This document shows positions 1,149 through 18,739 of a stretch of 64,000 nucleotides of DNA, piece after piece. A model generated the notes under the pieces. That model had not been told where the DNA came from and searched no databases. It saw only the letters and a list, made by a program, of their open reading frames with translations. Numbering within the stretch: the first letter of the stretch is position 1; each line of letters starts with the position of its first letter. Location: contig JABAKE010000005.1 of the NCBI GenBank assembly GCA_019779905.1, positions 186,001 to 250,000 of the forward strand. The letters are read 5' to 3'. This DNA is from Modestobacter lapidis (lineage in GTDB: Bacteria > Actinomycetota > Actinomycetes > Mycobacteriales > Geodermatophilaceae). A program made the translations under genes and the position numbers.

Positions 1149-1253
1149 CCGGATCCGGTCGGCCCGCACGACGTCGCACCACGACGTCCTACACCGGGTC
1201 GCCCATCCAGTAGGGTTCTCGTAGTATTTTCCATCGTCCCATCGGAGGCCAGC

Positions 1254-2165: not shown

Positions 2166-2228
2166 CATCCGCCCGTCCGGGGCATCCCCCTCATCGCACC
2201 CCCGCAGCCACGTCCAGGAGGACTGACC

Positions 2229-5855: not shown

Positions 5856-5864
5856 CAGCGGCGT

Positions 5865-5898
5865 CCGGGGGTCACCGGTGCGCCACGGTGACCCCCGG
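5865..5898 (+). terminator. Hairpin terminator after the amidase gene
   Basis: A perfect 13-base inverted repeat, CCGGGGGTCACCG (5865-5877) and its complement (5886-5898), with an 8-base loop starts 10 bases after the amidase stop. There is no T-run, as is common in GC-rich actinomycetes. Confidence 0.6.
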
Positions 5899-6056
5899 GC
5901 GTCCTGCCACAGGTCGAGCTCGGGTGGCGCCACCACCGCACGCGGTGGACATGCCGACACGACACGCCGGGACATTCCACGTCCGGGTTGACGGTTGGGA
6001 GCTCGGCGTAGCACCTTTCCCGGGTCAGTGATCCAGCTCACCTCCCGAGGAGCGGC

Positions 6057-7688
6057 ATGCGCGCTGCCAGGTATCCCGATCGGCCCACCTCTTCCCGGCA
6101 CCGGCCTCGAAGCAGGGTGCCGCTCCGCAGCCTCGTTCCCGCAGTCGTCGCCATGGCGGCGATGGTGCTCGGCGCCGGCCCGGCGGCGGCCACCCCCGGG
6201 CCGGATCCCGCCCCCGCTCCGGCACCGACTTCTCCTGCCGGCGACTGCGCCGGGTTGGCGGAGCTCGAGCTGGCCGAGGTCACGGCGATCTCCGCCGAGC
6301 TCGTGACGGCGGGTACGTCGGACGACCAGACCGACCTGCCGGCGTTCTGCCGGGTGGCGCTGACCGTCGAGCCGATGGTCGACATCGCGGTCTGGCTGCC
6401 CGTCGAGACGTACAACGGGCGGTTCCAGGCAGTCGGTGGCGGCGGCTACGCCGGCACCATCAGCTACCCGGCCATGGCCACCGCGCTGCGGGACGGGTAC
6501 GCCACCGCATCCACCGACACCGGCCACTCCACGCCGGGCGGCTCGTTCGCCCTGGCGGCGCCCGGCGACCTCGACGAGCAGCTCATCGAGGACTTCGCCT
6601 CCCGGTCGCTGTTCCAGCTCACGGAGAAGGCACAGACCCTGGTCGGGGCGTTCTACGGCATGCCGGCGGAGTACTCCTACTGGAACGGCTGCTCCACCGG
6701 GGGGCGGCAGGGCCTGATGCTGGCGCAGCAGCTCCCCGACGGCTACGACGGGATCCTCGCCGGCGCGCCGGCCATCAACTGGGACCGCTTCATCCCCGCG
6801 GAGCTCTGGCCCCAGGTCGTGATGCAGCAGGAACTCGGCGGGCCGATCGCCCCGTGCAAGCTGGAGGCCGCGACCCGCGCCGTCGTGGCTGCGTGCGACA
6901 CCCTGGACGGGGTCGCGGACGGCGTGCTCGACGACCCGCGCAGGTGTGACTTCCAGGCCGCCTCCCTCGTCGGCCAGCCGACCGACTGCGGCGAGTTCAC
7001 CGACGTCGATGCCCGCGTGGTCCAGGCGATCTGGGACGGTGCCCGGACCGTTGACGGCACCCGGTTGTGGTACGGCCTGGCACCCGGCGCCCCGCTGCAG
7101 GGCCTCGCCGGGCCGCAGCCCTTCCCGATCACCGTCGACCACCACAGGTACTGGATCGAGCAGGACCCGAACTGGGACTGGCAGAAGCTGGACTACGCGG
7201 GTTTCGAGGAGAACTTCGCCGCCTCGCAGCAGCTCTTCAACGAGGTCATCGGCACCGACGACCCGGATCTGTCCGCCTTCCGGCACTCCGGCGGCAAGGT
7301 CCTGATCTGGCACGGCTGGAACGACCAGCTGATCTTCCCCGAAGGCACCATCGACTACTACGAACGGGTCGTGGACACGGTGGGCAACCTGCACCGGGCC
7401 CAGGACTTCGCCCGGTTGTTCATGGCCCCCGGGGTGGAGCACTGTAGTGGCGGTGCGGGGGCCGACCAGTTCGACATGTTCGGCGAGCTCGTCGCGTGGG
7501 TCGAGGACGGTGCGGCACCCGAGCGCATCTCCGCCGCGCGCGTCGAGGACGGCCAGCAGGTGCTGACCCGGCCGCTGTGTCTCTACCCGCTGGTCGCCCG
7601 GTACGACGGCAGCGGGAACCCCCGTGTCGAGGCCAGCTACGACTGCAAGCGCACGTACGGCCGCTGGGGCACGCCGGGCCACGGCTGA
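6057..7688 (+). CDS. Secreted tannase/feruloyl-esterase family hydrolase
   Basis: A 543-residue protein with an N-terminal signal peptide (basic RPRSRVPLRS, then a hydrophobic stretch ending near AAATP, about residues 17-47). It shows the CS-D-HC signature of the tannase family: Cys212-Ser213 in WNGCSTGGRQG, Asp423 in WHGWNDQ and His462-Cys463 in GVEHCSGG. In known structures the two cysteines form a disulfide that ties Ser and His together. A Cys-rich lid segment, CDTLDGVADGVLDDPRRCDF (280-299), resembles the calcium-binding loop of the family. Members cleave esters of aromatic acids (gallate, ferulate, and in one branch phthalate-type esters) outside the cell. Placed beside aromatic-acid catabolic genes, it probably liberates the acid they consume. 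The exact ester is unknown. Confidence 0.88.
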   Translation: MRAARYPDRPTSSRHRPRSRVPLRSLVPAVVAMAAMVLGAGPAAATPGPDPAPAPAPTSPAGDCAGLAELELAEVTAISAELVTAGTSDDQTDLPAFCRVALTVEPMVDIAVWLPVETYNGRFQAVGGGGYAGTISYPAMATALRDGYATASTDTGHSTPGGSFALAAPGDLDEQLIEDFASRSLFQLTEKAQTLVGAFYGMPAEYSYWNGCSTGGRQGLMLAQQLPDGYDGILAGAPAINWDRFIPAELWPQVVMQQELGGPIAPCKLEAATRAVVAACDTLDGVADGVLDDPRRCDFQAASLVGQPTDCGEFTDVDARVVQAIWDGARTVDGTRLWYGLAPGAPLQGLAGPQPFPITVDHHRYWIEQDPNWDWQKLDYAGFEENFAASQQLFNEVIGTDDPDLSAFRHSGGKVLIWHGWNDQLIFPEGTIDYYERVVDTVGNLHRAQDFARLFMAPGVEHCSGGAGADQFDMFGELVAWVEDGAAPERISAARVEDGQQVLTRPLCLYPLVARYDGSGNPRVEASYDCKRTYGRWGTPGHG

Positions 7689-7804: not shown

Positions 7805-8707
7805 GTGACGACGGAGCCGAGTTCGACCTCCCGCGCCGGCGGTCGGGAGGCCCGGCTCGCGCCGCTGATCACCACGGTCCTGGGTCTCTACGCCCGGGCC
7901 GAGGGCAACTGGCTCTCCGTCGCGTCCTTGATCTCGCTGATGGCGGACGTCGGAGCCGAGGCGCAGGCGGTGCGGTCCTCGATCTCCCGGCTGAAGCGCC
8001 GCGGTGTCATCCACGCTGAACGGCAGCGGGGCGCGGCCGGCTACAGCCTGGCCGGCTCCACACTCGAGGTGCTGGCCGAAGGTGACGTCCGGATCTTCGA
8101 GCGCCGGCGGGCGACGGTCGCGGACGGCTGGGTCCTGCTGGTGTTCTCCGTGCCCGAGTCCGAGCGGGAGAAGCGGCACTCGCTCCGCACGAGCCTGACC
8201 GGCCTCGGCTTCGGCACCGCGGCCCCCGGGGTGTGGCTGGCACCCGGCAACCTCGAGTCGGAGACCCGCCACACCCTGGACCGGCGGGGCCTGTCCTCCT
8301 ACGTCGACATCTTCCGGGGCGAGTACGTGGCGTTCGGCGATCCGGGCGGCAAGGTGCGCGGCTGGTGGGACCTGGACGAGCTCACCGAGCTGTACACGGA
8401 CTTCCTGCACCGTTACCGGCCGGTCCTGCACCGGGCGACGTCGAACGGCATCGAACCGCAGGAAGCGTTCCGGACGTACGTACCGATGCTGACCCACTGG
8501 CGGCGGCTGCCCTACCGCGATCCGGGCCTTCCGATGTCCCTGCTCCCGCCCGGCTGGATCGGCGAGAGCGCCGGCGCGTTGTTCGACGAGCTCAACTCCG
8601 TCCTGGCCCCCCTCGCCCAGAAGCACGCGATGTCGGTCATCCACGGTGGGCCCGCGCGGAACGCCGGGGCGGGGCCGGCCGGGGCGCCGGGGCCCGCGAC
8701 GTCGTGA
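7805..8707 (+). CDS. PaaX-family transcriptional regulator
   Basis: A 300-residue protein with the three PaaX parts: an N-terminal winged helix (SVASLISLMADVGAEAQAVRSSISRLKRRG, cited in pieces: SLISLMADVG then AVRSSISRLKRRG, about residues 40-70), a central ferredoxin-like domain starting at WVLLVFSVPE, and a C-terminal domain with WWDLDEL and FRTYVPMLTHWRRLPYRDP. PaaX proteins repress phenylacetate or related aromatic genes and release DNA on binding the acyl-CoA intermediate. The GTG at 7805 is taken as the start because homology begins there; the frame is open further upstream without protein-like sequence. It faces the 2-aminobenzoyl-CoA-type operon tail to tail and is the obvious local regulator, although its operator is not recognised. 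Confidence 0.87.
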   Translation: MTTEPSSTSRAGGREARLAPLITTVLGLYARAEGNWLSVASLISLMADVGAEAQAVRSSISRLKRRGVIHAERQRGAAGYSLAGSTLEVLAEGDVRIFERRRATVADGWVLLVFSVPESEREKRHSLRTSLTGLGFGTAAPGVWLAPGNLESETRHTLDRRGLSSYVDIFRGEYVAFGDPGGKVRGWWDLDELTELYTDFLHRYRPVLHRATSNGIEPQEAFRTYVPMLTHWRRLPYRDPGLPMSLLPPGWIGESAGALFDELNSVLAPLAQKHAMSVIHGGPARNAGAGPAGAPGPATS

Positions 8708-8781: not shown

Positions 8782-11160
8782 TCAGGCGACCGGAGCGCTG
8801 TCCTCGTTCGGCGTCCACCGCACGTGGACGGTGGCGGCCTTCCCGGCGCGGAGCAGGGCGAGCCGCGGCGGGATCTTGTCGGTGCGCGAGGTGGGCGGCC
8901 TGCGCCGGCCGGCCCGGAACTGCTCCGGCCACTGCGCCCCCTCGCCCTGGTACTCCTGCTCGGCTGCCGCGTGGAGCGTCCACTGGGGGTCGTAGAGGTG
9001 GCTCCGGCCCAGGGCGCAGAGATCCGCGCGGCCCGCGAGCAGGATCGAGTTGACGTCGTCGTAGGAGGAGATGGCACCGACGGCGATGACCTTCGCCCCG
9101 GCCGGCGCGGCGACGACGTGCCGGATCCGGTCGGCGAAGGGCGTCTGGTACGACCGCCCGAACGCCGGCTGCTCGTTCTTGGCGATCTGCCCCGACGACA
9201 CGTCGATGGCGGCCGCGCCGTGCTCGACGAAGGCACGGGCGATCTCCACGGCGTCGTGCTCGGTGTTGCCGTCGGGCAGCCAGTCGCTGGCGGAGATCCG
9301 GACGGTCACCGGGATCGTCTCCGGAACCACCCGCCGGACGGCGTCGAAGACCTCCAGCGGGAAGCGCAACCGGTTGGCCAGCGAGCCGCCGTACTCGTCG
9401 GTCCGCCGGTTGGCGACCGGCGAGAGGAACGCGGAGAGCAGATAGCCGTGCGCGGCATGGAGCTCGATGAGGTCGAACCCGGCCGCGACGCCACGCTGCG
9501 CGGCGGTGACGAAGTCGGCCAAGACCTTGTCCAGGTCCGCGCGGTTCGCCTCCCGCGGCATGTGGCAGCCCTCGCCGTAGGCCAGGGCGGAGGGGCTGAT
9601 GACCTCCCAGTTGTTCTCCGGGAGCGGCTCGTCGATGCCCTCCCACATGAGCCGGGTCGACCCCTTGCGCCCGGAGTGCCCGAGCTGCAGACCGATCTTG
9701 GCCGAGGTGCGTTCGTGCACGAAGTCGGTGACGCGGCGGTAGGCGTCGCGCTGCCCGTCGTCCCACAGCCCGGTGCAGCCGGGGGTGATGCGGCCTTCGG
9801 GTGAGATGCAGACCATCTCGGTCATCACCAGTCCGGCACCACCCAGGGCCTTCGAGCCCAGGTGGACCAGGTGGAAGTCATCGGGCACGCCGTCCCGGGC
9901 GCTGTACATGTCCATCGGTGACACCACGACCCGGTTGGGCAGCGTCAGCGGGCCGATGTCGACGGGCTGGAACATGGCCGGCACCACCTCTGCCGAGCCG
10001 TTGGCCTCGGCGAACGCGGACTCGACCTGGTAGGCGAAGTCGGCGTCACGCTCCTTGAGGTTCTCGAAGGTGATCCGGCGGGACCGGGTCAGCAGGTTGA
10101 AGCAGAACTGACCCGGCTCCTGGTCGGCGTACATGTTGATGTTCTCGAACCACTCGAGCGAGGCCTGCGCCGCCCGCTGGGTCGACTCCACCACGGGCTT
10201 GCGCTCGGCCTGGTACGCCGCGAGGGCGGCGTCCACGGTGGGGTGCTCGTGCAGGCACGCGGCCAACGCCAGGGCGTCCTCCATCGCCAGCTTGGTGCCC
10301 GACCCGATGGAGAAGTGCGCGGTGTGGGCGGCGTCGCCGAGCAGCACCACGTTGCCGTGGTGCCAGGACTGGTTGCGGACGGTGACGAAGTTGAGCCACT
10401 TGGAGTTGTTCGTCAGCACCGAGTGGCCGGCGAGCTCGTCGGCGAAGATCTCCGCGATCCGCTCGACCGCGTAGTCGTCGGAGACGCCCGGCGGGAAGTT
10501 CTGGCTCTCCGTGGCGTCGAAACCGGCGCGGCGCCATACGTCCTGGTGCATCTCGACGATGAACGTCGAGCCGCTGTCGGAGTAGGGGTACCCGTGGATC
10601 TGCATGGTGCCCCACTCCGTCTGCTTGACGAAGAACTGGAAGGCCTCGAAGACCAGGTCCGTCCCGAACCAGATGTACTTGTTCTGCCGGTGGTCCAGGG
10701 ACGGGCGGAAGGCGTCGGCGTACTTGGTGCGGATCCGGGAGTTCAGGCCGTCCGCGGCCACGACGAGGTCGTGCGCGGCCCGCAGCTCGTCGACGTCGGG
10801 CGCCTCGGTCTCGTAGTGCACCGTGACGCCGAGTTCGGCGACGCGCTCCTGGAGGAGGTGGAGCAGGTCCTTGCGGCCCATCGCCGCGAAGCCCTGGCCA
10901 CCGACGGTGAAGGCGTGTCCGTTGAACTCGATGTCGATGTCGGTCCACCGGGCGAACCGGCGCGCCATCTGCTCGTGGATCACGGTGTCGGCACCCTCGA
11001 TGCCGCCCAGGGTCTCGTCGGAGAAGACGACGCCGAACCCGAAGGTGTCATCGGGAGCGTTGCGCTCCCACACGGTGACGTCGTGACCGGGGTCGAGCTG
11101 CTTCATCAGGGCGGCGAGGTAGAGCCCACCCGGTCCACCGCCGGCGATTGCGATCTTCAT
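8782..11160 (-). CDS. Fused flavin monooxygenase/old yellow enzyme, 2-aminobenzoyl-CoA monooxygenase/reductase or salicylyl-CoA 5-hydroxylase type
   Basis: A 792-residue two-domain flavoprotein. Residues 1-390 are a class A flavin monooxygenase: the FAD motif IAGGGPGGLYLA at the N-terminus and GDAAHT at 275-280. Residues 396-770 are an old-yellow-enzyme/NADH:flavin reductase barrel, seen in LTLPNRVVVSPM, HAAHGYLLSAFLSP and GGSLANRLRF. This fusion is known for 2-aminobenzoyl-CoA monooxygenase/reductase of Azoarcus, which hydroxylates and then reduces the ring of anthraniloyl-CoA, and database relatives are also named salicylyl-CoA 5-hydroxylase. The start, MKIAIAGGG at 11160, is 12 bases after a CoA ligase of the 2-aminobenzoate type, which favours the anthranilate reading. 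Neither substrate is proven. It ends the operon and converges on paaX. Confidence 0.88.
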   Translation of the reverse strand: MKIAIAGGGPGGLYLAALMKQLDPGHDVTVWERNAPDDTFGFGVVFSDETLGGIEGADTVIHEQMARRFARWTDIDIEFNGHAFTVGGQGFAAMGRKDLLHLLQERVAELGVTVHYETEAPDVDELRAAHDLVVAADGLNSRIRTKYADAFRPSLDHRQNKYIWFGTDLVFEAFQFFVKQTEWGTMQIHGYPYSDSGSTFIVEMHQDVWRRAGFDATESQNFPPGVSDDYAVERIAEIFADELAGHSVLTNNSKWLNFVTVRNQSWHHGNVVLLGDAAHTAHFSIGSGTKLAMEDALALAACLHEHPTVDAALAAYQAERKPVVESTQRAAQASLEWFENINMYADQEPGQFCFNLLTRSRRITFENLKERDADFAYQVESAFAEANGSAEVVPAMFQPVDIGPLTLPNRVVVSPMDMYSARDGVPDDFHLVHLGSKALGGAGLVMTEMVCISPEGRITPGCTGLWDDGQRDAYRRVTDFVHERTSAKIGLQLGHSGRKGSTRLMWEGIDEPLPENNWEVISPSALAYGEGCHMPREANRADLDKVLADFVTAAQRGVAAGFDLIELHAAHGYLLSAFLSPVANRRTDEYGGSLANRLRFPLEVFDAVRRVVPETIPVTVRISASDWLPDGNTEHDAVEIARAFVEHGAAAIDVSSGQIAKNEQPAFGRSYQTPFADRIRHVVAAPAGAKVIAVGAISSYDDVNSILLAGRADLCALGRSHLYDPQWTLHAAAEQEYQGEGAQWPEQFRAGRRRPPTSRTDKIPPRLALLRAGKAATVHVRWTPNEDSAPVA

Positions 11161-11171
11161 GGCCGTTCCTC

Positions 11172-12830
11172 TCACTGCGACGAGGCAAGCGTGCTTGCCC
11201 GCTCTTCTTCGACGGTGCGGCGCAAGATGTAGTGCTGGAGCTTGCCGCTGGTGTTGCGCGGCAGGGATCCGCTGAAGCGGACGTCGCGCGGGTACTTGTA
11301 CGGAGCCAGCTGCTGCTTGACGTGGTCCTGGATCTCCTTGGCCTTCGCCGCGTCCCCGGCCACCCCGTCGCGCAGCACCACGAAGGCGCAGACGATCGAT
11401 CCGCGCTCGGCGTCCGGTTTCGCGACGACGGCCGACTCGACCACGTCGGGGTGCGTGTCGATCGCGGCCTCGACCTCCGGGCCTCCGATGTTGTAGCCGG
11501 AGGAGACGATCATGTTGTCGGTGCGCGCGCAGTAGTGGAAGTAGCCGTCCTCGTCCCGGTAGAAGGTGTCGCCGGTGACGTTCCAGCCGTCCACGACGTA
11601 GCTCTGCTGCCTGTCGTCGTCGAGGTAGCGGCACCCGACCGGCCCGATCACCGCGAGCCGCCCCTCGGCTCCGGCGGGCAGTTCCTCCCCGTCGGGGCCG
11701 AGGATGGTCGCCCGGTACCCGGGCACCGGCATGCCGGTGGCACCGGGCCGGATGTCGTCGCCGGTGGCGGAGATGAAGATGTGGAGCAGCTCCGTGGCAC
11801 CGATGCCGTCGATGATCCGCAGCCCCAGCTCCGCCTCGATCTGCTCCCACACCGGTTGCGGGATGTGCTCTCCGGCGCTGACCGCGTTCCGCAGGCTGCG
11901 TAGCTGGCCGATCTTCCCGGACCGGAGGATCTGCTTGTAGGCGGTCGGCGCCGTGGCCAGCACGGTGACCCGGTGCTCCTCGACGAGGTCGGCCAGGCGC
12001 GGCGGAGTCGCGGCCTCGACCAGGAACATGCACGCCCCTGCCCGCAGCGGGAACACCAGGAGCATCCCGAGGCCGAAGGTGAAGGCGAACGGGGCGGTGC
12101 AGGCGACGAGGTCGTCGGCGTGCAGGCGCAGCAACCCCCGGCCGAAGGTGTTGTCGATGGAGAGCACGTCACGGTGGAAGTGCATGGTCAGCTTCGGGAC
12201 GCCGGTGCTCCCCGACGTCGGTCCGAACAGCGCCACGTCGTCGGCCGCGGTGTCGACGTTGACGAACTCCCCCGACTTCGCGGCGCAGCGGGCGACGAGG
12301 TCGTCGCTGCCCTCGCCGCCGAAGGGGACGACGACGAGCTGCCCTGCCGCGGTGTCCCGGACCACCGCGACGTCCTCGGTGTACCGGTGGTCGACCAGGG
12401 CGACCGTCGGCTGGGCCTTGGTCACGACCGGCGCGAGCTCCCGGGCGCGCAGCGCCGGCATGGTCAGGACGACGATGCCGCCGGCCTTGAGCACGCCCAG
12501 CCACGCGGCGACGGTCCAGGGGTTGTTCGGCGAGCGCAGGAGCACCCGGTTGCCCGGCACGAGCCCGAGGTCCTCGACGAGCACCTGGGCCACCTGGTTC
12601 GCGCGCCGCTGCAGGTCACCGTAGGACCACACCTCGCCGGTGTCGGTCCGGATCGCCGGGCGGTCGGGGCCGTGGGTGGCGACCGCGACGTCGATGAGCT
12701 CGCCGGCGGCGTTGAGCCGCTCGGGGTACTGCAGTTCGGGGGTGGTGAACTCCAGGCGCGGCCACTGCTCGAACGGCGGCAGGTGATCACGGGCGAAGGT
12801 GTCGGTGTGGGAGCTGGGGAACAGCTGCAT
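11172..12830 (-). CDS. Aryl-CoA ligase, probable 2-aminobenzoate-CoA ligase
   Basis: A 552-residue ANL-superfamily ligase. The AMP-binding P-loop FGPTSGSTGVPK sits at 202-213, the adenylation motif GIGATELLHIF near 345, the hinge YFHYCARTDNMI later, and the catalytic C-terminal Lys in NTSGKLQHY. The N-terminal pattern HTDTFARDHLPPFEQWP is one I associate with the 2-aminobenzoate-CoA ligase branch of the benzoate-CoA ligase family. It would activate the aromatic acid with ATP and CoA and feed the fused monooxygenase encoded 12 bases downstream. Benzoate, salicylate or other ortho-substituted benzoates remain alternative substrates. It is in the same minus-strand operon as a thioesterase and a cupin. 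Confidence 0.88.
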   Translation of the reverse strand: MQLFPSSHTDTFARDHLPPFEQWPRLEFTTPELQYPERLNAAGELIDVAVATHGPDRPAIRTDTGEVWSYGDLQRRANQVAQVLVEDLGLVPGNRVLLRSPNNPWTVAAWLGVLKAGGIVVLTMPALRARELAPVVTKAQPTVALVDHRYTEDVAVVRDTAAGQLVVVPFGGEGSDDLVARCAAKSGEFVNVDTAADDVALFGPTSGSTGVPKLTMHFHRDVLSIDNTFGRGLLRLHADDLVACTAPFAFTFGLGMLLVFPLRAGACMFLVEAATPPRLADLVEEHRVTVLATAPTAYKQILRSGKIGQLRSLRNAVSAGEHIPQPVWEQIEAELGLRIIDGIGATELLHIFISATGDDIRPGATGMPVPGYRATILGPDGEELPAGAEGRLAVIGPVGCRYLDDDRQQSYVVDGWNVTGDTFYRDEDGYFHYCARTDNMIVSSGYNIGGPEVEAAIDTHPDVVESAVVAKPDAERGSIVCAFVVLRDGVAGDAAKAKEIQDHVKQQLAPYKYPRDVRFSGSLPRNTSGKLQHYILRRTVEEERASTLASSQ

Positions 12831-12912
12831 CGGAGGTCCTTCCGGAGCCGAAGGGGAGCCGAGGGAGGCGCCGTGCCCGGAGGCCGGTGCCGTGCCGGAG
12901 GGAGGACCGGCC

Positions 12913-13848
12913 TCAGGAGGCGCGGATCATGCCCTCCTGGACGACGGTGGCCAGGTGCCGTCCGTCGCGGGTGAAGAAGCGGCCCTGCCCGACGCCGCGC
13001 CCCGAGGCCGCGTGGCCGGCGTCCTGGACGTACAGCAGCCAGTCGTCGAGGGCACCCTCGACCGGGACCGAGTGGAACCACATCGCGTGGTCCAGGCTCG
13101 CGGTCACGAGCCCCGGCCGTGCCCAGGGCAGGTCGAGCATCCGGAGCACCGGTTCGAGGATGGTGTAGTCGCAGACGTAGGCCAGGGCGGCCAGGTCGCG
13201 CTGGGCCCGCGAGAGCCCGGGGACGTCGCGCAGGCCGTCGTAGGGCCGGATCCACACTGCCTGGTGGGGGGCCTGCTCCCCCTCGACGGAGAGGTAGACG
13301 GGCCCCGGGAGGTGCCGCATGTCGAAGCTGCGGCCCCCGCTCCAGTAGGCCTTCGACTCCTCCGTCATGGTCCCGCCGGAGCGGTCGGCGAGGTACGTCG
13401 CCGCGGATGGCAGCGTCTCCGGGGCCGGCACGTCGGGCTGCTGCGGGGCGAAGGAGCCGCCCTGTTCCCCGGCCGCGAAGGAGGCGAGCGCGACGTACAC
13501 CGGCTTGCCGTTCTGGTATCCGCGCACATGACGGGTGCTGTAGCCGCGCCCGTCGCGGAGGCGTTCGACCTCGTAGGTCACGCCGGCGCCGATGTCCGCC
13601 GGCCGCATGAAGTAGGAGTGCATGGAGTGCAGCGACTTGCCGCCCTCCTCCGCGTCGGGAACCGTCCGCATCGCAGCCGCCGCGGCCGCCGCGACGAGGT
13701 CCCCGCCGTAGGCCTTCGGCCAGGGGCACGCCTGGGTGACGGCGACGTACGCGGCGTCGTAGTGCTCGGGCTCCGTCTCGCTGAGCGTGACGGCGGCGGT
13801 GAACGTGGCCGACGTCGGTGCGTCGACCACTCGCGGCGCCTCGGTCAC
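12913..13848 (-). CDS. Acyl-CoA thioesterase II (TesB-like)
   Basis: A 311-residue double-hotdog protein of the TesB family. The first hotdog carries KAYGGDLVAAAA and SLHSMHSYFMRP; the second carries GLVTASLDHAMWFH near residue 260 and the closing GRFFTRDGRHLATVVQEG, which is characteristic of TesB. Members hydrolyse acyl-CoA to the free acid and CoA in the cytosol. In an aryl-CoA operon it may recycle CoA from dead-end thioesters or give a free-acid product. The GTG at 13848 overlaps the stop of the upstream cupin by four bases (GTGA), so the two are coupled. There are 82 bases before the CoA ligase start. Confidence 0.88.
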   Translation of the reverse strand: MTEAPRVVDAPTSATFTAAVTLSETEPEHYDAAYVAVTQACPWPKAYGGDLVAAAAAAAMRTVPDAEEGGKSLHSMHSYFMRPADIGAGVTYEVERLRDGRGYSTRHVRGYQNGKPVYVALASFAAGEQGGSFAPQQPDVPAPETLPSAATYLADRSGGTMTEESKAYWSGGRSFDMRHLPGPVYLSVEGEQAPHQAVWIRPYDGLRDVPGLSRAQRDLAALAYVCDYTILEPVLRMLDLPWARPGLVTASLDHAMWFHSVPVEGALDDWLLYVQDAGHAASGRGVGQGRFFTRDGRHLATVVQEGMIRAS

Positions 13849-14339
13849 GGTCGGTCGACCCAGTCGTTCAGGGCGGTGTCGGCCACGTCGGCGAGGTTGA
13901 CCACGATGTTGTCCGGGGTGCGGGTGGTCATCCAGGTGAGCGGCCGGTTGCGGTCGACGTTGCACTCGACGTGCGGCATGTAGGGCGGCACGAAGACCCA
14001 GTCGCCCTCCGCCATGTCGATGTAGTCCGCGTACTTCTCCCCGAAGTAGATCCGCGCGCGGCCCGAGAGCACGTAACCGCCGGTCTCGGCCTCGCCGTGG
14101 TGGTGCGGCACCGATCGGTAGCCCGGGTCGTTGCTGACCTTGCCGAACCAGATCCGGGTGGCCGGGGTGTGCTCGGGGCTCACCCCGGCGATGCGGGAGG
14201 CGCCTCCCGACTGGCCGGTGTTGAGCGACTCGAGCCCGCCGCGGGTGACGACCGGAACCACCAGGCCGCTCTCGTTGGCGTACATCGCGTTGTCGCCCTC
14301 CGGCGGCATGTTGCGGAGGTCCTTGTCGGTCGGTTGCAT
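13845..14339 (-). CDS. Single-domain cupin protein of unknown role in the aryl-CoA operon
   Basis: A 164-residue cupin. The metal-binding motif 1 is visible as SVPHHHGEAETGGYVLSG (about residues 90-107, His-His-His...Glu) and motif 2 as PPYMPHVECN. An intact metal site suggests an enzyme (dioxygenase, isomerase) or a ligand sensor. ATG at 14339 is chosen over upstream starts because GAGGAG precedes it on the minus strand and homology begins there. It is the first gene of the operon cupin, thioesterase, CoA ligase, fused monooxygenase and is coupled by overlap to the thioesterase. It is too short for gentisate 1,2-dioxygenase, which has two cupin domains, so a gentisate role is unlikely. No firm function is given. 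Confidence 0.8.
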   Translation of the reverse strand: MQPTDKDLRNMPPEGDNAMYANESGLVVPVVTRGGLESLNTGQSGGASRIAGVSPEHTPATRIWFGKVSNDPGYRSVPHHHGEAETGGYVLSGRARIYFGEKYADYIDMAEGDWVFVPPYMPHVECNVDRNRPLTWMTTRTPDNIVVNLADVADTALNDWVDRP

Positions 14340-14583
14340 CCCAGCTCCTCCTCGTTGGTGACGGCGACGTGGCCGCGCCGGACCGCCCGTCGCTGCCGGT
14401 CCCCGGATCGACAGGTTCTCCACCACGGTGGCCCCGAATGCCGGCAGCGGCACCTCGTGGCGCGCCTTCCAGGGTCCGTCGTCCCTTACCCGTTATCTCT
14501 GATTCTTCACGCCCGTCATGTAATGTCAATAAGCGAATCGCCCGCTGCCGCGCCGATGCGCGGCACGACCTGATGGAGGCGGC
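14340..14583. promoter_or_regulatory. Divergent promoter region between the aryl-CoA operon and the Rid-family gene
   Basis: This 244-base gap separates two divergent starts and contains the most AT-rich stretch of the area (14490-14535). On the minus strand a TTGACA (14529-14524) is followed by TTACATGAC and then GGCGTGAAGA (14513-14504). The same TTGAC(A/G)TTA plus GGCGTGAAGA arrangement recurs upstream of the ThDP/ABC operon at 18283-18300. A regulator-binding or promoter role is inferred. Confidence 0.45.
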
Positions 14584-14994
14584 ATGCCCCCGATCCCCGT
14601 GAACCCCACTGCACTGCCCGCGCCGACCGGCTACTCCCACGGGACGCTGGCCGGGAACACGCTGTACCTGGGCGGTCAGACCGCCCTGGACAAGGACATG
14701 AAGATCGTCGAGGGCGGCATCGTCGAGCAGTTCCATCAGGCGTTCAGCAACGTCCTGACCACGCTGCGCGAGGTCGGCGGTCAGCCCGAGGACCTGGTCA
14801 GCATCACGCTGTACATGACCGACATCCCCGACTACCAGGCCCACGGTCGGGAGATCGGCCGGGTGTGGCGGGAGATCGCCGGGCCGGTCTACCCCGCGAT
14901 GGCCGGCATCGGCTGCACCGCGCTGTGGCAGCCGGAGGCCATGATCGAGATCCTCGGCGTCGCCGTGATCCCGGAGGACCGCCTCCGGGCGTGA
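14584..14994 (+). CDS. Rid (YjgF/YER057c/UK114) family protein
   Basis: A 136-residue protein of the Rid family, with the typical TLYLGGQTALD, QAFSNVLTTLREVGG and LVSITLYMTD blocks. Archetypal RidA hydrolyses enamine/imine intermediates and needs an Arg in the C-terminal PAR motif. Here the matching segment is PAM (Met106), so the key Arg appears to be missing and the protein likely belongs to one of the Arg-less Rid subfamilies. It is transcribed divergently from the 2-aminobenzoyl-CoA-type operon, whose product could carry an enamine. That makes a role in that pathway attractive, but the missing Arg weakens a simple deaminase call. A GGAGG site lies 7 bases before the ATG. Confidence 0.85.
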   Translation: MPPIPVNPTALPAPTGYSHGTLAGNTLYLGGQTALDKDMKIVEGGIVEQFHQAFSNVLTTLREVGGQPEDLVSITLYMTDIPDYQAHGREIGRVWREIAGPVYPAMAGIGCTALWQPEAMIEILGVAVIPEDRLRA

Positions 14995-15069
14995 TCACCG
15001 GCGCGGCGCGGGTCGCGGAGGGCGCCACCGCCCTGACGGGCGCACCCACCGGGCGATCCGGTCGCGGGG

Positions 15070-15783
15070 TCAGGACTCCGCGACCGTCCCCGCCGAGGAC
15101 TCCGCCGAGGACTCCGCGAAGACGACGAGGTTCTCGGTGGATGCCCGCCCTCCGCCGCGCTGGAAGCACGTGATGAGCACCAGCCGTCCCGGCGCGGCCT
15201 CCCACACCTCGGTGGCGTCGGCCAGCTCGCCCTTGGCGTACCGCTCGGCGCGTTCGACGGTGTAGCCGACCGTGCCCTGCGGGGTGCTGACCTCGATGAC
15301 GTCGCCGGCCCCGAGGGTGCTGCCCCCGCCGCCGGGCGCCATCAGCGGGTCGAAGCCGTACTCGCCGGTGCCGGTCGAGTGGGCCGCGAGGTAGAGCGTG
15401 TTGTCGGCCTCCCCGGCCATGCCGACCGGGTCGCCGTAGGGCTGGATCCAGTAGGCCGCCGTGAGCGTCGGCGGATTGATCGCGCCGCCGCGCGGGGTGT
15501 GCGGCAGCACCGGCAGATCCAGGCCCAGCGCGGGGATGGTCACGTGCACGTCCGAGGACGGGGTGGGCAGCGTCGTCCCCTCGGGCGGCAGGGTGGGCTG
15601 GGGCGGCTCACCGTGAGGCGGGGCCGCGGTGGCCGCGGCGACCGGGTCGGAGGACCCGGTCGCCGTGGCCGGCTGCCCGCCGTCGGCCAGGCCGACGGCG
15701 AGCACCGTGCCCCCGGTGATCCCGAGGGCGGCGACCGCCGCGATCGCGGCGGTGCGCCGGCCCGGCCGGATCAGGCCTCGCAC
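15070..15783 (-). CDS. Class F/E-type sortase
   Basis: A 237-residue sortase. An N-terminal basic segment and hydrophobic anchor (about residues 8-34) precede a Pro/Ala-rich linker, then the beta-barrel. The catalytic residues are His135 (LYLAAHSTG), Cys206 (LVLITCFQ) and Arg213 (GGGR). Sortases are membrane-anchored transpeptidases that link surface proteins to the cell envelope at an LPXTG-like motif. The GTG start at 15783 lies inside the 3' end of the upstream surface-protein gene (13-base overlap), which ties it to that one substrate. The C-terminus ends in a small AESSAESS duplication from a 12-base tandem repeat (15092-15115). The sortase class is judged from size and organism type. 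Confidence 0.87.
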   Translation of the reverse strand: MRGLIRPGRRTAAIAAVAALGITGGTVLAVGLADGGQPATATGSSDPVAAATAAPPHGEPPQPTLPPEGTTLPTPSSDVHVTIPALGLDLPVLPHTPRGGAINPPTLTAAYWIQPYGDPVGMAGEADNTLYLAAHSTGTGEYGFDPLMAPGGGGSTLGAGDVIEVSTPQGTVGYTVERAERYAKGELADATEVWEAAPGRLVLITCFQRGGGRASTENLVVFAESSAESSAGTVAES

Positions 15784-16934
15784 GTCCCGCCCTCGACCGC
15801 CGGGGTCCGCCGGGTGCGGGCGACGGCGACGCCGCCGACGCCGGCGAGGAGCAGCATGCCGGCACCCGTGGCGACCACGACGGTGCCGGTGGAGCCGGTC
15901 TCGACGACCTCGACGCCGGTGTTCGAGTCGAGCCCGGCGTTGACCGGGGCGGCCGCCGGGGTGGTCGGCGCCGCGGCCGGCGGGACCACCGCCGGCGTCT
16001 CCGCGGCGAGGACCACCAGCTCCACGGCCACGACCGAGATGCCGCCGGACGGGGTCGGCTGGGCGATCACCAGGCCGTAGGAACCGGCCGCCGTGCCCGC
16101 CGGAACGGTGATGCTCGCCGTCGACCCGGTGACCTGGGGCGTGAGCAGCACGGCGGCGCCGGTGGGGGCACCGCTCGCATCCACCTGCGCCAGGCCGACC
16201 TGCGCACCGGTGAGGTCGGCGATTCCGAGCTCGCGCAGCGCGGAGCCCGCGGTCAGGTCGAGCGCGACGGTCGAGCCGGCCGTCACCGGGGTCGGGAAGG
16301 GGCACCGGGTGACGGCCGAGAGGTTGCAGGGCACCTGCGAGAGGGCGACCAGCGCAGGCTCCACGGTCACCGCGGCGGCCGCGGTGGCATCGAAGGCGAC
16401 GAGGTAGCTCACCGGGTCGACGACGGTGAACGCCGGGCTGGTGAGGGCCGAGGTGAGCGGCTCGAGGGAGAGGGTGGCCTCGTCGACGCCGAAGCCGGGG
16501 TCGGCCGGCAGGGTGACCTCGATGCTGCCGGTGCCCGCGCCGCTGATGGCGAGGTAGAACGGGTCGCTGGACGCCACGGCGGAGGAGTAGGTCACGTCCG
16601 GGGTGAGCGGGTCGGCGTCGTCGTCGAAGGCGAGCTCGGCCTCGACGGTGGAGTCGTCGAGCTGGGCGGGCAGGTCCACGGTGATCGCGCCGCCGTACTG
16701 CACACCCACGGGCGTCAGCGTGGGCACGGCGTTCGGATCGGCCATGGGGTTCATGTCGCCGAGGTTCTCTGCCGGGAAGGCGGTCAGCACGACCTCGCCC
16801 GGCTCGAGCGGGATGACGACGCCGGTCGCGGCGCCCGCCGCGGACGCGGTGCCGACGAGGACGGCAGCGGCACCGAGGCCGACGGCGCTGAATCGCCGGG
16901 CCTGCGGGCGGCGCTTGTGGGTGTTGCGTGACAT
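15771..16934 (-). CDS. Secreted, probably sortase-anchored surface protein
   Basis: A 387-residue exported protein. The signal peptide has a twin basic start (NTHKRRPQARR) and a hydrophobic core ending at AAGAA near residue 36. The body is rich in Thr, Ala, Pro and Val with beta-sandwich-like segments, and holds two cysteines (PCNLSAVTRC). The C-terminus has the sorting-signal layout: a TG motif (VVETG at 343-347), a hydrophobic helix, then ARTRR. No canonical LPXTG or LAXTG is present, so VVETG is proposed as a non-standard sorting motif. The sortase gene starts within its 3' end, so it is the likely dedicated substrate. The biological role of the surface protein is unknown. ATG at 16934 has an AAGGTG site upstream. 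Confidence 0.8.
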   Translation of the reverse strand: MSRNTHKRRPQARRFSAVGLGAAAVLVGTASAAGAATGVVIPLEPGEVVLTAFPAENLGDMNPMADPNAVPTLTPVGVQYGGAITVDLPAQLDDSTVEAELAFDDDADPLTPDVTYSSAVASSDPFYLAISGAGTGSIEVTLPADPGFGVDEATLSLEPLTSALTSPAFTVVDPVSYLVAFDATAAAAVTVEPALVALSQVPCNLSAVTRCPFPTPVTAGSTVALDLTAGSALRELGIADLTGAQVGLAQVDASGAPTGAAVLLTPQVTGSTASITVPAGTAAGSYGLVIAQPTPSGGISVVAVELVVLAAETPAVVPPAAAPTTPAAAPVNAGLDSNTGVEVVETGSTGTVVVATGAGMLLLAGVGGVAVARTRRTPAVEGGTCEA

Positions 16935-17326
16935 GGGGGGGACACCTTCCGGCGACCGCAACGCCCCGGTGGCGCTGGCTGCAGCGGAACGTAACGGCAC
17001 CGGTCGGTTCTCATCAGTACATGACATGCGGCGTGGGACGGGTGCGGCCGGGCGTGATGGGAATGTGACCGGCGACGCGGTCACCTCGACAACTTCTGGC
17101 CAACGACCGACCCATTGTTGGCCAGCTGATGTCATGCCTTGGTGTTGCGTCGCTCTGGCGCAGACACTTTCCGCCGGTGAACCTTGCTGCGTGCCGGCGC
17201 GGCAGCGGATCCGGCACGATCCTCAGCACGCCTGGCGCGTGCTGCTGCCCGTGGTCCTCACGACGTACCGACCGTGTGCCCGGGCCGATCGCAGCGGGCG
17301 CGGGCGCCGGCGGCTGGTAGCCGGGC
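16935..17326. other. 392-base non-coding gap upstream of the surface-protein gene
   Basis: No protein-like frame is seen. The gap should hold the promoter for the surface protein and sortase and the 3' end of the MBL-fold gene. It contains two inverted repeats: GTGACC/GGTCAC at 17065-17084 and the stronger pair annotated separately at 17096-17125. Confidence 0.5.
17096..17125. promoter_or_regulatory. Inverted repeat, possible operator or hairpin
   Basis: A perfect 9-base inverted repeat, CTGGCCAAC (17096-17104) and GTTGGCCAG (17117-17125), separated by 12 bases, about 160 bases upstream of the surface-protein start. The two arms lie roughly two helical turns apart centre to centre, as expected for a dimeric repressor site, but an RNA hairpin is equally possible. 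Confidence 0.4.
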
Positions 17327-18100
17327 TCAGCCCTGCTGGAGCCGGTCGGAGAGTCCGGCCGCGGCGAAGGCGGCGACGACGTCCTCACGGCTCTCGGTGA
17401 AGTGGCCCCAGCTGTCGCAGTGGACCGGGACCACGCGCCGGGCACCCAGGATGGTGGCGGCCTCGGCCGACTGGGCGCTGTCGATGGTGAGCAGCGCACC
17501 GTCGAAGAAGGGGGTGCGCACGGCGCCGACGAACAGCACCGCGGTGTCCACCGCGCCGACACGCTCGCTGATCTCCCGGACCAGGTCCAGCGACGCGTTG
17601 TCACCGCTGACATAGACGGTGGGCAGGCCGTCCCCGGTCAGCACGAAACCGATGACCTCCCCGGTGACCGGCTCGCAGCCCTTCGGGCCGTGCTCGGCGG
17701 GGGTGGCGGTCACGGTCACGCTTCCGCCGTCGGGGCGGGTGAGCTCGACGGCCTGCCAGGGGGCGAGGCCGCGCGCGGTACCGCCGAGACGGCCGGCTCC
17801 GCCACCGGTGGTCAGCACGAGCGGGACGTCGGCGAGGAAGGCCCGACCCGAGTTGTCCAGATTGTCCGGGTGCTCGTCGTGGGACAGCAGCACCGCGTCG
17901 ACCGCGCCGAGGTCGGCGGGGTCGATCGACGCCGGAGCGGTCTTGGTCAGGACGAGGTCACCGAAGGGGTAGTCGCCAGGAGCGTCGAAGGTCGGGTCGG
18001 TCAGGATCCGCAGCCCTCCGTACTCGATGAGGGCGGTCGGCCCGCCGAACACGCGGACGGGGAGGTCTTCGGCGGTGGAACGGGCGTCGGTCACGTGCAC
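17327..18100 (-). CDS. MBL-fold metal-dependent hydrolase (UlaG-like)
   Basis: A 257-residue metallo-beta-lactamase-fold protein. The early strand LIEYGGLRILTDPTFD and the metal motif LLSHDEHPDN (about residues 93-102) are visible, followed by TPAEHGPKG and the late PVHCDSWGHF motif supplying the last His. The layout matches UlaG/L-ascorbate-6-phosphate-lactonase-like hydrolases, a broad group in which many members act on unknown small esters, lactones or phosphodiesters. No signal peptide. It is alone on the minus strand with a 226-base gap to the sortase substrate start side and is divergent from the ThDP/ABC operon. The start codon is GTG; a second in-frame GTG a few codons later is possible. 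Confidence 0.82.
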   Translation of the reverse strand: MHVTDARSTAEDLPVRVFGGPTALIEYGGLRILTDPTFDAPGDYPFGDLVLTKTAPASIDPADLGAVDAVLLSHDEHPDNLDNSGRAFLADVPLVLTTGGGAGRLGGTARGLAPWQAVELTRPDGGSVTVTATPAEHGPKGCEPVTGEVIGFVLTGDGLPTVYVSGDNASLDLVREISERVGAVDTAVLFVGAVRTPFFDGALLTIDSAQSAEAATILGARRVVPVHCDSWGHFTESREDVVAAFAAAGLSDRLQQG

Positions 18101-18282
18101 CTCACGGGGATGGGTGGGCTTTCCGTGGGGCCGACGCTAAGCGGTGGTCCTCACGAAGCAATCGCCCGGTGGGCAGTTCCTCGATCTGCTCGGCGGGCCC
18201 AGCCGGCGTTGACGCGCCGCCGGGCCGCAGCGCCTGGCGGAGGCTCCTCGCGGAGGCACCACGCTCATGACGTGCTATTTGC

Positions 18283-18312
18283 TTGACGTTAGGCGTGAAG
18301 ATGACACACTAT
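18283..18312 (+). promoter_or_regulatory. Candidate promoter of the ThDP/ABC/IOR operon
   Basis: TTGACG (18283-18288), an 18-base spacer and CACTAT (18307-18312) lie 35 bases upstream of the first GTG of the operon. The spacer contains GGCGTGAAGA, also present in the divergent region at 14504-14513 after a similar TTGACATTA. Confidence 0.45.
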
Positions 18313-18346
18313 GGCGTGACCCACTTCACCCCTGGAGGGAGCCTCC

Positions 18347-18739
18347 GTGGCAGACGCACCAAACGCCCCCCTCGCGGGTCGCTCGTCCGTGACCACGGGG
18401 AACAGCGCGGGCGTCGTGACCGAGCTGCGAATCCCTGACCGCCTGACCGCGTCGTCGGGCCGCCACTACGTCCCGGGGACCGAGGCGCTCGTCCGACTGC
18501 CGCTCTACGTGGCGCAGCGCGATCGGGAGGCGGGACTCCGCACCGGCGTCCTCATCTCGGGCCATCCCGGCTCACCCCTCGGCGGGCGCGGCCTCACCCT
18601 CGATCGCGAGGCCGATCCTTCTCGCGGGCACGGGGTCGTGCACGTACCGGCCGGCAACGAGGAGCAGGCCACCACGGCCGGGATCCGAAAAGACGTCGTT
18701 GCTGGTCATCCCACACGCCGACGAGACCACGCCACGTGA
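18347..18739 (+). pseudogene. Truncated N-terminus of an indolepyruvate ferredoxin oxidoreductase paralogue
   Basis: The 130-residue frame matches only the first ~120 residues of the 1208-residue oxidoreductase at 24017-27643: DRLTASSGRHYVPG, VRLPLYVAQRDREAGLR, LISGHPGSPLGG and PAGNEEQA align with the corresponding segments of the full protein. Homology runs to about GHPTRRRDH and then the frame stops; the remaining >1000 residues, including the ThDP, iron-sulfur and gamma domains, are missing. It has a GGAGGG site and its TGA overlaps the GTG of the next gene (GTGA), so it may still be translated as a leader-like ORF. No function is assigned; it is probably the relic of a deletion or duplication. 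Confidence 0.75.

Follow-up and report, generated by a model that had tools for sequence, protein, structure and literature searches.

Positions 8782-14994 of the window, the 64,000-nucleotide stretch of Modestobacter lapidis DNA that was analysed, carry genes for a cupin, a TesB-type thioesterase, an aryl-CoA ligase and a fused flavin monooxygenase/old-yellow-enzyme protein (ABM/R), together with a divergent Rid gene. This locus is of the type known from plasmid pAL1, and several of its genes look like a replacement for the usual last steps of anthranilate degradation. This one kind of entry enzyme is followed by at least three different gene sets, for one of which concrete enzymes are named here, and the variant makes a gap in the known anthranilate pathway testable.

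Gene content and likeness to pAL1

Gene models were derived from codon-usage gene calling, direct reading of the sequence, and Pfam/NCBIfam profiles. They bore out the gene set of an earlier note on this DNA (cupin, thioesterase, ligase, fusion, divergent Rid gene and nearby PaaX regulator), as follows:

7805..8707, plus strand: PaaX-family regulator, convergent with ABM/R (PF07848, PF20803, PF08223)
8782..11160, minus strand: ABM/R, predicted 2-aminobenzoyl-CoA monooxygenase/reductase, 792 aa (PF01494 at residues 2-328, PF00724 at 396-733)
11172..12830, minus strand: AMP-forming aryl-CoA ligase, predicted 2-aminobenzoate-CoA ligase, 552 aa (PF00501 and PF13193)
12913..13848 or 12913..13830, minus strand: TesB-type acyl-CoA thioesterase (PF02551, PF20789, PF13622)
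13845..14339, minus strand: single-domain cupin, 164 aa (PF07883; metal ligands H79, H81, E85, H123)
14509..14529, minus strand: promoter-proximal element TTGACATTACATGACGGGCGT in the divergent region, based on a pattern count among type II divergent regions
14584..14994, plus strand: Rid-family protein, 136 aa (PF01042)

The ligase and ABM/R genes were separated by 11 bases. ABM/R was taken to start at the ATG at 11160, the longest listed open reading frame (8782-12033) exceeding the gene, and two GTG codons were candidate starts for TesB, one at 13848 that overlaps the cupin stop as GTGA and one at 13830 chosen by codon usage. The ligase scored 324 bits with TIGR02262, below the cut-off of 375.

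On pAL1 (pARUE113; NC_009453) of Arthrobacter sp. Rue61a, a Rid gene likewise diverges from cupin, TesB, ligase, and ABM/R genes. Unlike the window's locus, that of pAL1 carries an FAH-family gene in the interval from Rid to cupin, and it has PaaX-family genes on both flanks, whereas the window has a single adjacent one. Identities to the pAL1 counterparts were 70% for ABM/R, 69% for Rid, 63% for the ligase, 62% for the cupin, and 55% for TesB. The arrangement extends beyond chance, since in 31 of 104 other loci a cupin and TesB were found no more than 9 kb from a fusion of this kind. The thioesterase and cupin had been considered unexpected in this pathway; instead, both mark a whole actinobacterial type, and pAL1 has them in the same order.

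Because the fusion and the ligase are this similar to those of pAL1, whose ligase was assayed as an anthranilate-CoA ligase (PMC3534580), anthranilate is very probably the substrate of the window's pathway. That paper further reports CoA esters of C7H7NO3 and C7H8O4 in anthranilate-grown Rue61a cells, cometabolic conversion of 5-hydroxyanthranilate, no growth on 5-hydroxyanthranilate, gentisate or salicylate, and a chromosomal ABM/R homologue with 50% identity to the characterised Azoarcus protein. Rue61a carries a ligase/ABM/R pair on its chromosome as well. The earlier note's proposal of a variant anthranilate route that runs through CoA esters and depends on oxygen was supported by the pAL1 identities and by the published ligase assay and CoA esters.

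Gene sets around ABM/R

We compared 105 ABM/R loci, a chosen set consisting of the window, eight plasmid records (picked among the 40 matches listed of 95 with 80% cover), 16 genomes of the family (22 others had long matches, of which six were omitted because their contigs were short), and the 80 best among at least 585 relatives. Loci with an SDR, an enoyl-CoA hydratase, or an acyl-CoA dehydrogenase within 9 kb at 37% identity or more, one of the three being enough, were called type I, limits that we chose ourselves; the Azoarcus pathway was represented by proteobacterial type I loci with these genes. Type II loci had a cupin and TesB within 9 kb of ABM/R. The cupin/TesB pair was found in 32 of the 105 loci (26 of these with FAH and 31 with Rid) and beta-oxidation genes at 37% identity or more in 62. 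Both occurred together only in the window, by way of its box-cluster gene; without the identity limit, a weak SDR match appeared in three more type II loci (L036, L038, L063). Eleven loci fitted neither type, and four of these constitute type III. Some loci stop at contig ends, where absences mean little, and the loci are kin by descent, so that hypergeometric and shuffle figures overstate their independence; L059 and L076 have identical ABM/R rows on equally long contigs, and the contigs of L064/L240 and L084/L211 are also equally long pairwise.

In a second set, made up of 186 genomes from a single family, the cupin was present in 17 genomes, every one of them among the 36 with ABM/R, and beta-oxidation genes (37% identity or more) accompanied none of 16 cupin loci vs. 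7 of 19 cupin-less loci. More than two alternatives appear to lie behind ABM/R, since 12 of these 19 cupin-less loci were also without a beta-oxidation gene at the threshold; a sub-threshold SDR was read by eye in the cupin-less loci L209, L213, and L214, and L218, L220, and L226 lie on contigs with a usable length of 3.5 to 12 kb. Among 396 genomes of the phylum, 42 with ABM/R, there were three strong cupin matches, all beside ABM/R. Later counts refer to 49 type II loci, comprising 31 of the 32 above (L064 omitted), 16 from the second set, among them L227 with its shortened cupin, and L198 and L199. Possible sources of anthranilate, which is a by-product of tryptophan, were located near 12 of the 49 (TDO, KynU, aqdC, cyclase genes) and were about equally common near type I loci (8/62); a TDO and a KynU-like gene were also present in the window's own genome.

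A group of 29 type II rows with 98 SH-aLRT support included the window's ABM/R. As the type II label requires three changes on the ABM/R tree, the cupin/TesB pair probably occurs on more than one ABM/R lineage. Type III loci (L115, L124, L126, and L136, from Streptomyces, Yinghuangia, and Saccharothrix) share an ABM/R-like fusion, ligase, FAH, and PaaX, but differ from the window in having gentisate-dioxygenase-like and nitrilase-like genes, no cupin/TesB pair, and a fusion that has lost reductase residues; three of them also contain a small 4HBT thioesterase and three an Amdase-like gene. The gentisate-dioxygenase-like gene of L115 scored 320 bits, below the cut-off of 442, in a library scan of the L115 genes only. 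His568 was replaced by Gln and Tyr573 was lost in 4/4 type III fusions, while both residues were kept in 111/111 type I and II proteins; in the window, H568, H571, and Y573 were present and both domain motifs were intact. The correlation counts as a single event, since type III forms one clade on the ABM/R tree. Given that the reductase His was lost only in loci with the gentisate-dioxygenase-like gene, the cupin/TesB type probably handles a reduced ring, and type III constitutes a natural control.

A candidate lower pathway and its alternatives

Azoarcus (Aromatoleum) evansii resembles the window in its 2-aminobenzoate-CoA ligase and monooxygenase/reductase, but a review gives beta-oxidation for its lower pathway, unlike the route proposed here. 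For type II, we favour a dedicated route that works on the reduced ring with Rid, cupin, TesB, and FAH and does without beta-oxidation; the exact order of steps and products is put forward with more reserve. Judging from close homology, the ligase would convert anthranilate to 2-aminobenzoyl-CoA, and ABM/R would hydroxylate C5 and reduce the ring to 2-amino-5-oxocyclohex-1-ene-carbonyl-CoA, as reported for the homologous Azoarcus enzyme. Rid may then hydrolyse the enamine to 2,5-dioxocyclohexane-carbonyl-CoA, which the cupin, acting as a Dke1-like beta-diketone dioxygenase, would cleave between C1 and C2 with O2 to 2,4-dioxopimeloyl-CoA. TesB would release 2,4-dioxopimelate (succinylpyruvate), and an FAH-family acylpyruvate hydrolase, presumably supplied in trans in the case of the window, would split this into succinate and pyruvate. 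If true, a pathway already using O2 for dearomatisation would bypass beta-oxidation and finish with succinylpyruvate, succinate, and pyruvate, through a ring-opening strategy without assignment in the literature examined. Succinylpyruvate was not mentioned in the literature searched, which did not include Parschat 2007 on pAL1 and Schuhle 2001 on Azoarcus.

It is a tentative part of this proposal that the cupin opens the dearomatised beta-keto-thioester ring with O2 and that a Rid protein without the carboxylate-binding Arg serves a CoA-ester enamine. The Rid of the window has Met106 at the column of RidA's Arg in an alignment to solved Rid proteins, and Arg was absent there from all 85 Rid sequences linked to ABM/R, although one is cut off ahead of the column. 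As Arg105 of RidA is described as binding substrate and being needed for imine hydrolysis (PMC4433059), its absence weakens the case for Rid as the deaminase. The cupin ligands H79, H81, E85, and H123 were invariant in 32/32 aligned orthologues. Like the window's cupin, with its His-rich metal site, Dke1 is a small single-domain cupin (153 aa), and it cleaves beta-diketones with O2 (PMC4019311); we use it solely as a chemical model. Searches of the cupin against solved structures gave weak scores to oxalate decarboxylases and other cupins and no sequence match to Dke1, and an AlphaFold model built from 22 sequences (pLDDT 45.7) was too poor for a fold search. Around a distant cupin in genome G219 (93 bits), no gene matched any of the reference proteins, and the setting gave no functional clue. 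In TesB, Asp and Gln were kept and Ser replaced Thr at what we take to be the triad positions of solved TesB.

The known substrates of FAH-family enzymes are 2-oxo acids that contain a pyruvate unit. Most related loci have such a gene, but none was found near the window's locus; it was also absent from 5/31 other type II loci (6/32 with the window) and from 4/15 type II loci of the second set. FAH relatives elsewhere in the window's own genome amounted to 16 matches, and the FAH at 51142-51762 of the window fell outside the type II FAH group. In the FAH tree, which included 12 of the 16 own-genome matches and omitted two FAHs shorter than 200 aa, 20 of 24 type II FAHs formed one group that branches together with FAHs from gentisate-like clusters; apart from the loci without the gene, four type II loci had a nearby FAH outside this main group. 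His84 and Glu87 were invariant in 13 aligned type II FAHs. Solved 2,4-diketo-acid and acylpyruvate hydrolases were among the matches of their profile, but the profile is not specific for hydrolases, since the best-scoring solved relatives are named hydratase and isomerase/decarboxylase.

Two other readings appear unlikely to about the same degree. If ABM/R only hydroxylated, TesB would free 5-hydroxyanthranilate, the cupin would cleave it in the manner of a gentisate dioxygenase, Rid would deaminate, and FAH would split the product. The C7H7NO3-CoA of Rue61a, presumably hydroxyanthraniloyl-CoA, and the cometabolic conversion of 5-hydroxyanthranilate fit this aromatic sequence, as do the kinship of most type II FAHs with those of gentisate-like clusters and the pairing of ABM/R with a gentisate-dioxygenase-like gene in type III; the retention of His568 and Tyr573 outside type III and the C7H8O4-CoA of Rue61a argue against it, as does the reported absence of growth of Rue61a on 5-hydroxyanthranilate or gentisate, which failed uptake could also explain. 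Alternatively, ordinary beta-oxidation might be encoded elsewhere, with TesB, cupin, and Rid in housekeeping roles, freeing CoA and dealing with reactive intermediates. Such a pathway is the one given for Azoarcus in the review and would agree with the type II loci that lack FAH, but it leaves unaccounted for the mutual avoidance of cupin/TesB and beta-oxidation genes in two sets and the finding of a strong-scoring cupin only in ABM/R genomes of the samples searched.

Hydrolysis of the dioxo-CoA ring to 4-oxopimeloyl-CoA, from which TesB would free 4-oxopimelate while the cupin acted as isomerase or regulator, seems less probable still. In benzoate degradation, 2-ketocyclohexanecarboxyl-CoA hydrolase performs a comparable hydrolytic ring opening and so provides a precedent, and the incomplete occurrence of FAH in type II would be accommodated, yet no pyruvate-bearing 2-oxo acid would arise for FAH, the expected substrate class with which some names of solved relatives agree, and the metal ligands of the cupin are invariant. 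Least probable is salicylate degradation via salicylyl-CoA and gentisyl-CoA. It follows the name of NF006101 ('bifunctional salicylyl-CoA 5-hydroxylase/oxidoreductase'), which ABM/R matched with 1210 bits over a cut-off of 1078, and a stand-alone homologue with 46% identity over residues 1-412 exists elsewhere in the same genome. Salicylate is nevertheless unlikely, since gentisate-dioxygenase-like genes were found within 10 kb of available sequence at 0/49 type II loci and the reductase half is intact; the anthranilate assay of the pAL1 ligase, the reported lack of growth of Rue61a on salicylate, and the anthranilate-yielding neighbour genes also speak against it. The comparison suggests that the NCBIfam name is wrong for type II members.

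Flanking genes and regulation

Beta-oxidation genes had been noted close to the locus, and they are indeed present at 22-4255 (plus strand), but their assignment to the anthranilate pathway was not supported. Since the 20 kb to the left of the window encode BoxC (886 bits, cut-off 712), BoxB (761, cut-off 499), and benzoate-CoA ligase (509, cut-off 375), these genes look like the end of an adjoining benzoyl-CoA epoxidase (box) cluster.

A PaaX operator of the form TGATTC-N22..34-GAATC is present in the window but in just 1/48 type II upstream regions, and was dropped as a candidate. That a PaaX-family protein controls the divergent promoter is our guess. The pattern TTGA[CG]N{4,11}GACGNN[CT]GT, framed after the sequences had been viewed, was found in 25/46 type II divergent regions vs. 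23/9200 random, mostly coding stretches of the same loci. It is the middle one of three looser patterns, which matched 18, 25, and 27 of 46 regions and 21, 23, and 82 of 9200 controls, respectively; a stricter pattern, which misses the window, matched 13/46 regions and 7/9200 controls.

Gene content and types of ABM/R loci

Gene calling and domain matches placed the cupin, thioesterase, CoA ligase, fused flavin monooxygenase/old-yellow-enzyme and divergent Rid genes of the earlier note all within the interval 8782–14994. The locus is real and belongs to an actinobacterial kind already known. Four of its genes are read from the minus strand. The first transcribed is the cupin gene (164 aa), followed by those for the TesB-type thioesterase, the AMP-forming aryl-CoA ligase and a 792-aa fusion of an FAD monooxygenase with an old-yellow-enzyme domain (the predicted 2-aminobenzoyl-CoA monooxygenase/reductase, ABM/R). 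A Rid-family gene diverged from the cupin gene, and a PaaX-family gene was convergent with the fusion gene. Because the cupin and thioesterase reading frames possibly overlap by GTGA and the ligase–fusion gap is 11 bases, the four genes are probably carried on a single transcript. A pattern framed after viewing the sequences, TTGA[CG]N{4,11}GACGNN[CT]GT, matched 25 of the 46 divergent regions between Rid and the operon, compared with 23 of 9200 stretches drawn at random from the same loci, and our guess is that it represents a promoter with a putative PaaX operator. Its match in the window was:

14529–14509, minus strand: TTGA[CG]N{4,11}GACGNN[CT]GT element in the divergent region

A match to the entire fusion was found in this genome only among the 18 genomes of the genus sample (itself counted), and matches of at least 500 residues in 23 of 96 genomes of the family sample. 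The comparison set comprised 105 loci with a long fusion. Besides the window, there were 8 plasmid loci chosen among the matches listed, 16 loci of the family sample and 80 loci of named genomes (the best 80 of 585 relatives). Types were assigned from BLAST matches to reference genes lying no more than 9 kb from the fusion; type I required one or more of SDR, enoyl-CoA hydratase and acyl-CoA dehydrogenase at ≥37% identity, and type II both cupin and TesB. Type I accounted for 62 loci (3 with a fumarylacetoacetate-hydrolase-type gene, FAH) and type II for 32 (26 with FAH, 31 with Rid), leaving 11 in neither. No locus of the 105 had cupin without TesB or TesB without cupin within 9 kb, and both types scored together in the window only, via the hydratase of its own box cluster. 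Four of the 11 unplaced loci (L115, L124, L126 and L136; type III) contained ligase, fusion, nitrilase-like, gentisate-1,2-dioxygenase-like, FAH and PaaX genes; three of the four also had a small 4HBT thioesterase, and three an Amdase-like gene. In L115, the sole type III locus scanned against libraries, the gentisate dioxygenase match reached 320 bits, below the cut-off of 442, and the Amdase match was to PF17645.

In a further sample of 396 genomes of the phylum, the fusion was found in 42 and a cupin profile match in 4; the three strong matches (293–301 bits, this genome included) each adjoined a fusion, and the remaining one (93 bits) was not linked to any. In the family of genome G180 (186 genomes), all 17 genomes with a cupin match were among the 36 with a fusion (hypergeometric 1.7e-14, a figure that ignores descent). 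Of 16 cupin loci taken from this set, which, judged by length, shares two contigs with the first 105 loci, 15 were type II (11 of them with FAH); in the sixteenth, L227, a shortened cupin was accompanied by TesB, FAH and Rid. Beta-oxidation genes at threshold were found at none of these 16, nor at a seventeenth, L198. They were present in 7 of 19 cupin-less loci and not in 12; three of the latter were read, and each had an SDR, a CoA-binding/ATP-grasp synthetase and a second AMP ligase, with a methylmalonyl-CoA-mutase-like gene in two (the synthetase and mutase of L213 were scanned against libraries). Such loci are perhaps a fourth type:

L213, 11360–16639: ATP-grasp CoA synthetase, second AMP ligase and methylmalonyl-CoA-mutase-like gene in one run
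L209, 3221–8465: the same run

Anthranilate as the probable substrate

In plasmid pAL1 of Arthrobacter sp. Rue61a, the closest known anthranilate locus, the gene order is Rid (divergent), FAH, cupin, TesB, ligase, fusion, PaaX. The window has these genes in the same order except for FAH, which is absent within 9 kb of the window locus. Identities between the two were 69% for Rid, 62% for the cupin, 55% for TesB, 63% for the ligase and 70% for the fusion. In the published account, the pAL1 ligase made in E. coli showed anthranilate-CoA ligase activity, and Rue61a cells grown on anthranilate contained anthraniloyl-CoA together with two further CoA esters, of C7H7NO3 and C7H8O4; the strain is reported not to grow on salicylate, gentisate or 5-hydroxyanthranilate, the last of which it converts cometabolically (PMC3534580). 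Among type II loci, 12 of 49 had possible anthranilate-source genes (tryptophan dioxygenase, kynureninase, alkylquinolone dioxygenase, PF04199 cyclase) within 10 kb, as did 8 of 62 type I loci. Two such genes stand on other contigs of the genome itself: a tryptophan dioxygenase (65% identity to the Rhodococcus NJ-530 enzyme) and a kynureninase-like gene (49% identity to its counterpart at locus L231). The NCBIfam name of the fused protein, salicylyl-CoA 5-hydroxylase/oxidoreductase, which is also on many records among the matches listed, would favor salicylate; it looks like a misnomer for this group. On the strength of the pAL1 identities, the published ligase activity, CoA esters and growth data (PMC3534580) and the anthranilate-source genes, we accept the earlier proposal of anthranilate as the very likely substrate.

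Reductase residues and a proposed lower route

The tree placed the window fusion, together with that of pAL1, in a group of 29 type II rows (98 SH-aLRT support, quick tree). Type II genes also occurred on other ABM/R branches (two Streptosporangiaceae and Quadrisphaera, the latter a long branch meeting another long branch and of unsure position), so that the type II label needed three changes on the tree. Three residues of the old-yellow-enzyme half, His568, His571 and Tyr573, are taken by us to be catalytic by kinship with YqjM and relatives. All 115 aligned fusions retained His571. Every type I and II protein (111 of 111) also kept His568 and Tyr573; in type III, His568 was replaced by Gln in 4 of 4 and Tyr573 by His, Gln or Phe. 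A gentisate-dioxygenase-like gene lay within 10 kb of 4/4 type III, 3/62 type I and 0/49 type II loci, type III being one clade, so one event, and picked out partly by this gene itself. It looks as though loci with an apparently broken reductase (type III) are equipped for aromatic ring cleavage and those with an apparently intact one (type II) are not. Judged from sequence, type III is a natural split of the two predicted activities of the fusion. The intact-looking reductase residues and the lack of a gentisate-dioxygenase-like gene favor the view that the type II genes act on a reduced ring.

The locus kind is a variant with an unexplained lower half, for which a concrete, testable scheme can now be given. 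No assignment of cupin, TesB, FAH or Rid in this locus type was recognisable in the largely open-access literature covered. Residues H79, H81, E85 and H123 of the cupin were invariant in 32 of 32 aligned sequences, the thioesterase looks active by alignment, and structure-database sequence searches found no close solved relative of the cupin. Dke1, a 153-aa cupin, is reported to cleave many beta-diketones with O2 (PMC4019311), and the authors of the Rue61a study suggested that the C7H8O4-CoA might be cyclohexanedione-carboxyl-CoA (PMC3534580). A Dke1-like cupin would convert C7H8O4-CoA to 2,4-dioxopimeloyl-CoA, TesB would release 2,4-dioxopimelate (succinylpyruvate), and an acylpyruvate hydrolase would yield succinate and pyruvate. 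We infer that each extra gene would thereby be employed once, without beta-oxidation.

FAH-family enzymes of this sort act on acids with a pyruvate part. Among solved structures, matches to a profile of 13 type II FAHs, in all of which His84 and Glu87 were invariant, included 2,4-diketo-3-deoxyrhamnonate hydrolase, maleylpyruvate hydrolase and acylpyruvase FAHD1; the two best are named hydratase and isomerase/decarboxylase. In the FAH tree, 20 of 24 type II FAHs formed one group (support 91), joined (90) to a group of five (99) that included two FAHs of this genome beside gentisate-like genes:

Contig C275, about 10.7–13.3 kb: gentisate-like cluster with cupin, FAH and companion gene
Contig C347 (the contig of the window, which spans its bases 186001–250000), about 4.9–8.2 kb: second such cluster

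The companions are a mycothiol maleylpyruvate isomerase or FAD monooxygenase, and the 365- and 382-aa cupins were named by resemblance (Pfam Cupin_2). No FAH was found within 9 kb at the window locus or at L035, L046, L066, L067 and L077, nor a remnant in the 244-base divergent region of the window. The genome has 16 FAH-family matches; the two of the 12 compared that were nearest to the pAL1 FAH were 51% and 48% identical. Either an FAH of the genome acts in trans, or the last step is different. One candidate for the missing gene fell in another FAH group:

51142–51762: FAH-family gene next to an aldehyde dehydrogenase gene

In RidA, an arginine binds the substrate carboxylate, and its change to alanine reportedly left almost no activity (PMC4433059). 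In an alignment with solved Rid proteins, this column held Arg in none of 85 ABM/R-linked Rid sequences (Met in 78, Leu in 3, Thr in 2 and Ile in 1; the remaining sequence was cut off and had a gap), and imine hydrolysis by the predicted protein is therefore not inferable from the family name. A neutral residue would make sense, because the carboxyl of the proposed substrate is a CoA thioester.

Neighboring genes

The beta-oxidation genes that the earlier note had pointed out nearby are better read as part of an adjoining benzoyl-CoA epoxidase (box) cluster, as which we take them together with the genes to their left:

22–4255: 3-hydroxyacyl-CoA dehydrogenase, enoyl-CoA hydratase, LLM-like oxidoreductase, aldehyde dehydrogenase and MaoC (gene calls and family matches)
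L042 (20 kb left of the window), 10592–20000: BoxC, BoxB, benzoate-CoA ligase, ferredoxin-like and transporter-like genes, continuing the above leftward

The aldehyde dehydrogenase scored above the cut-offs of both PaaZ and 3,4-dehydroadipyl-CoA semialdehyde dehydrogenase. At L046, the closest relative of the locus (fusion 86% identical), no match to the 22–4255 genes was found in the 20 kb compared. The box genes are separated from PaaX by genes of the amidase and tannase/feruloyl-esterase families (4410–7688), whose products might free aromatic acids from their amides and esters.

Beyond the Rid gene lay:

18736–20379: TPP-dependent enzyme, 46–54% identical to one adjoining a PF04199 cyclase gene in ABM/R loci L048, L049, L070, L132 and L199
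20503–27643: NMT1/THI5-type ABC transporter genes and a 1208-aa indolepyruvate ferredoxin oxidoreductase family protein, next after the TPP gene

The TPP enzyme/cyclase pair of those loci is perhaps an isatin hydrolase and isatinate decarboxylase supplying anthranilate; their cyclase had no match at E 1e-10 in the stretches of this genome compared. The 1208-aa protein scored 1210 bits vs. a cut-off of 816, and IOR genes occurred near 3 of 49 type II loci.
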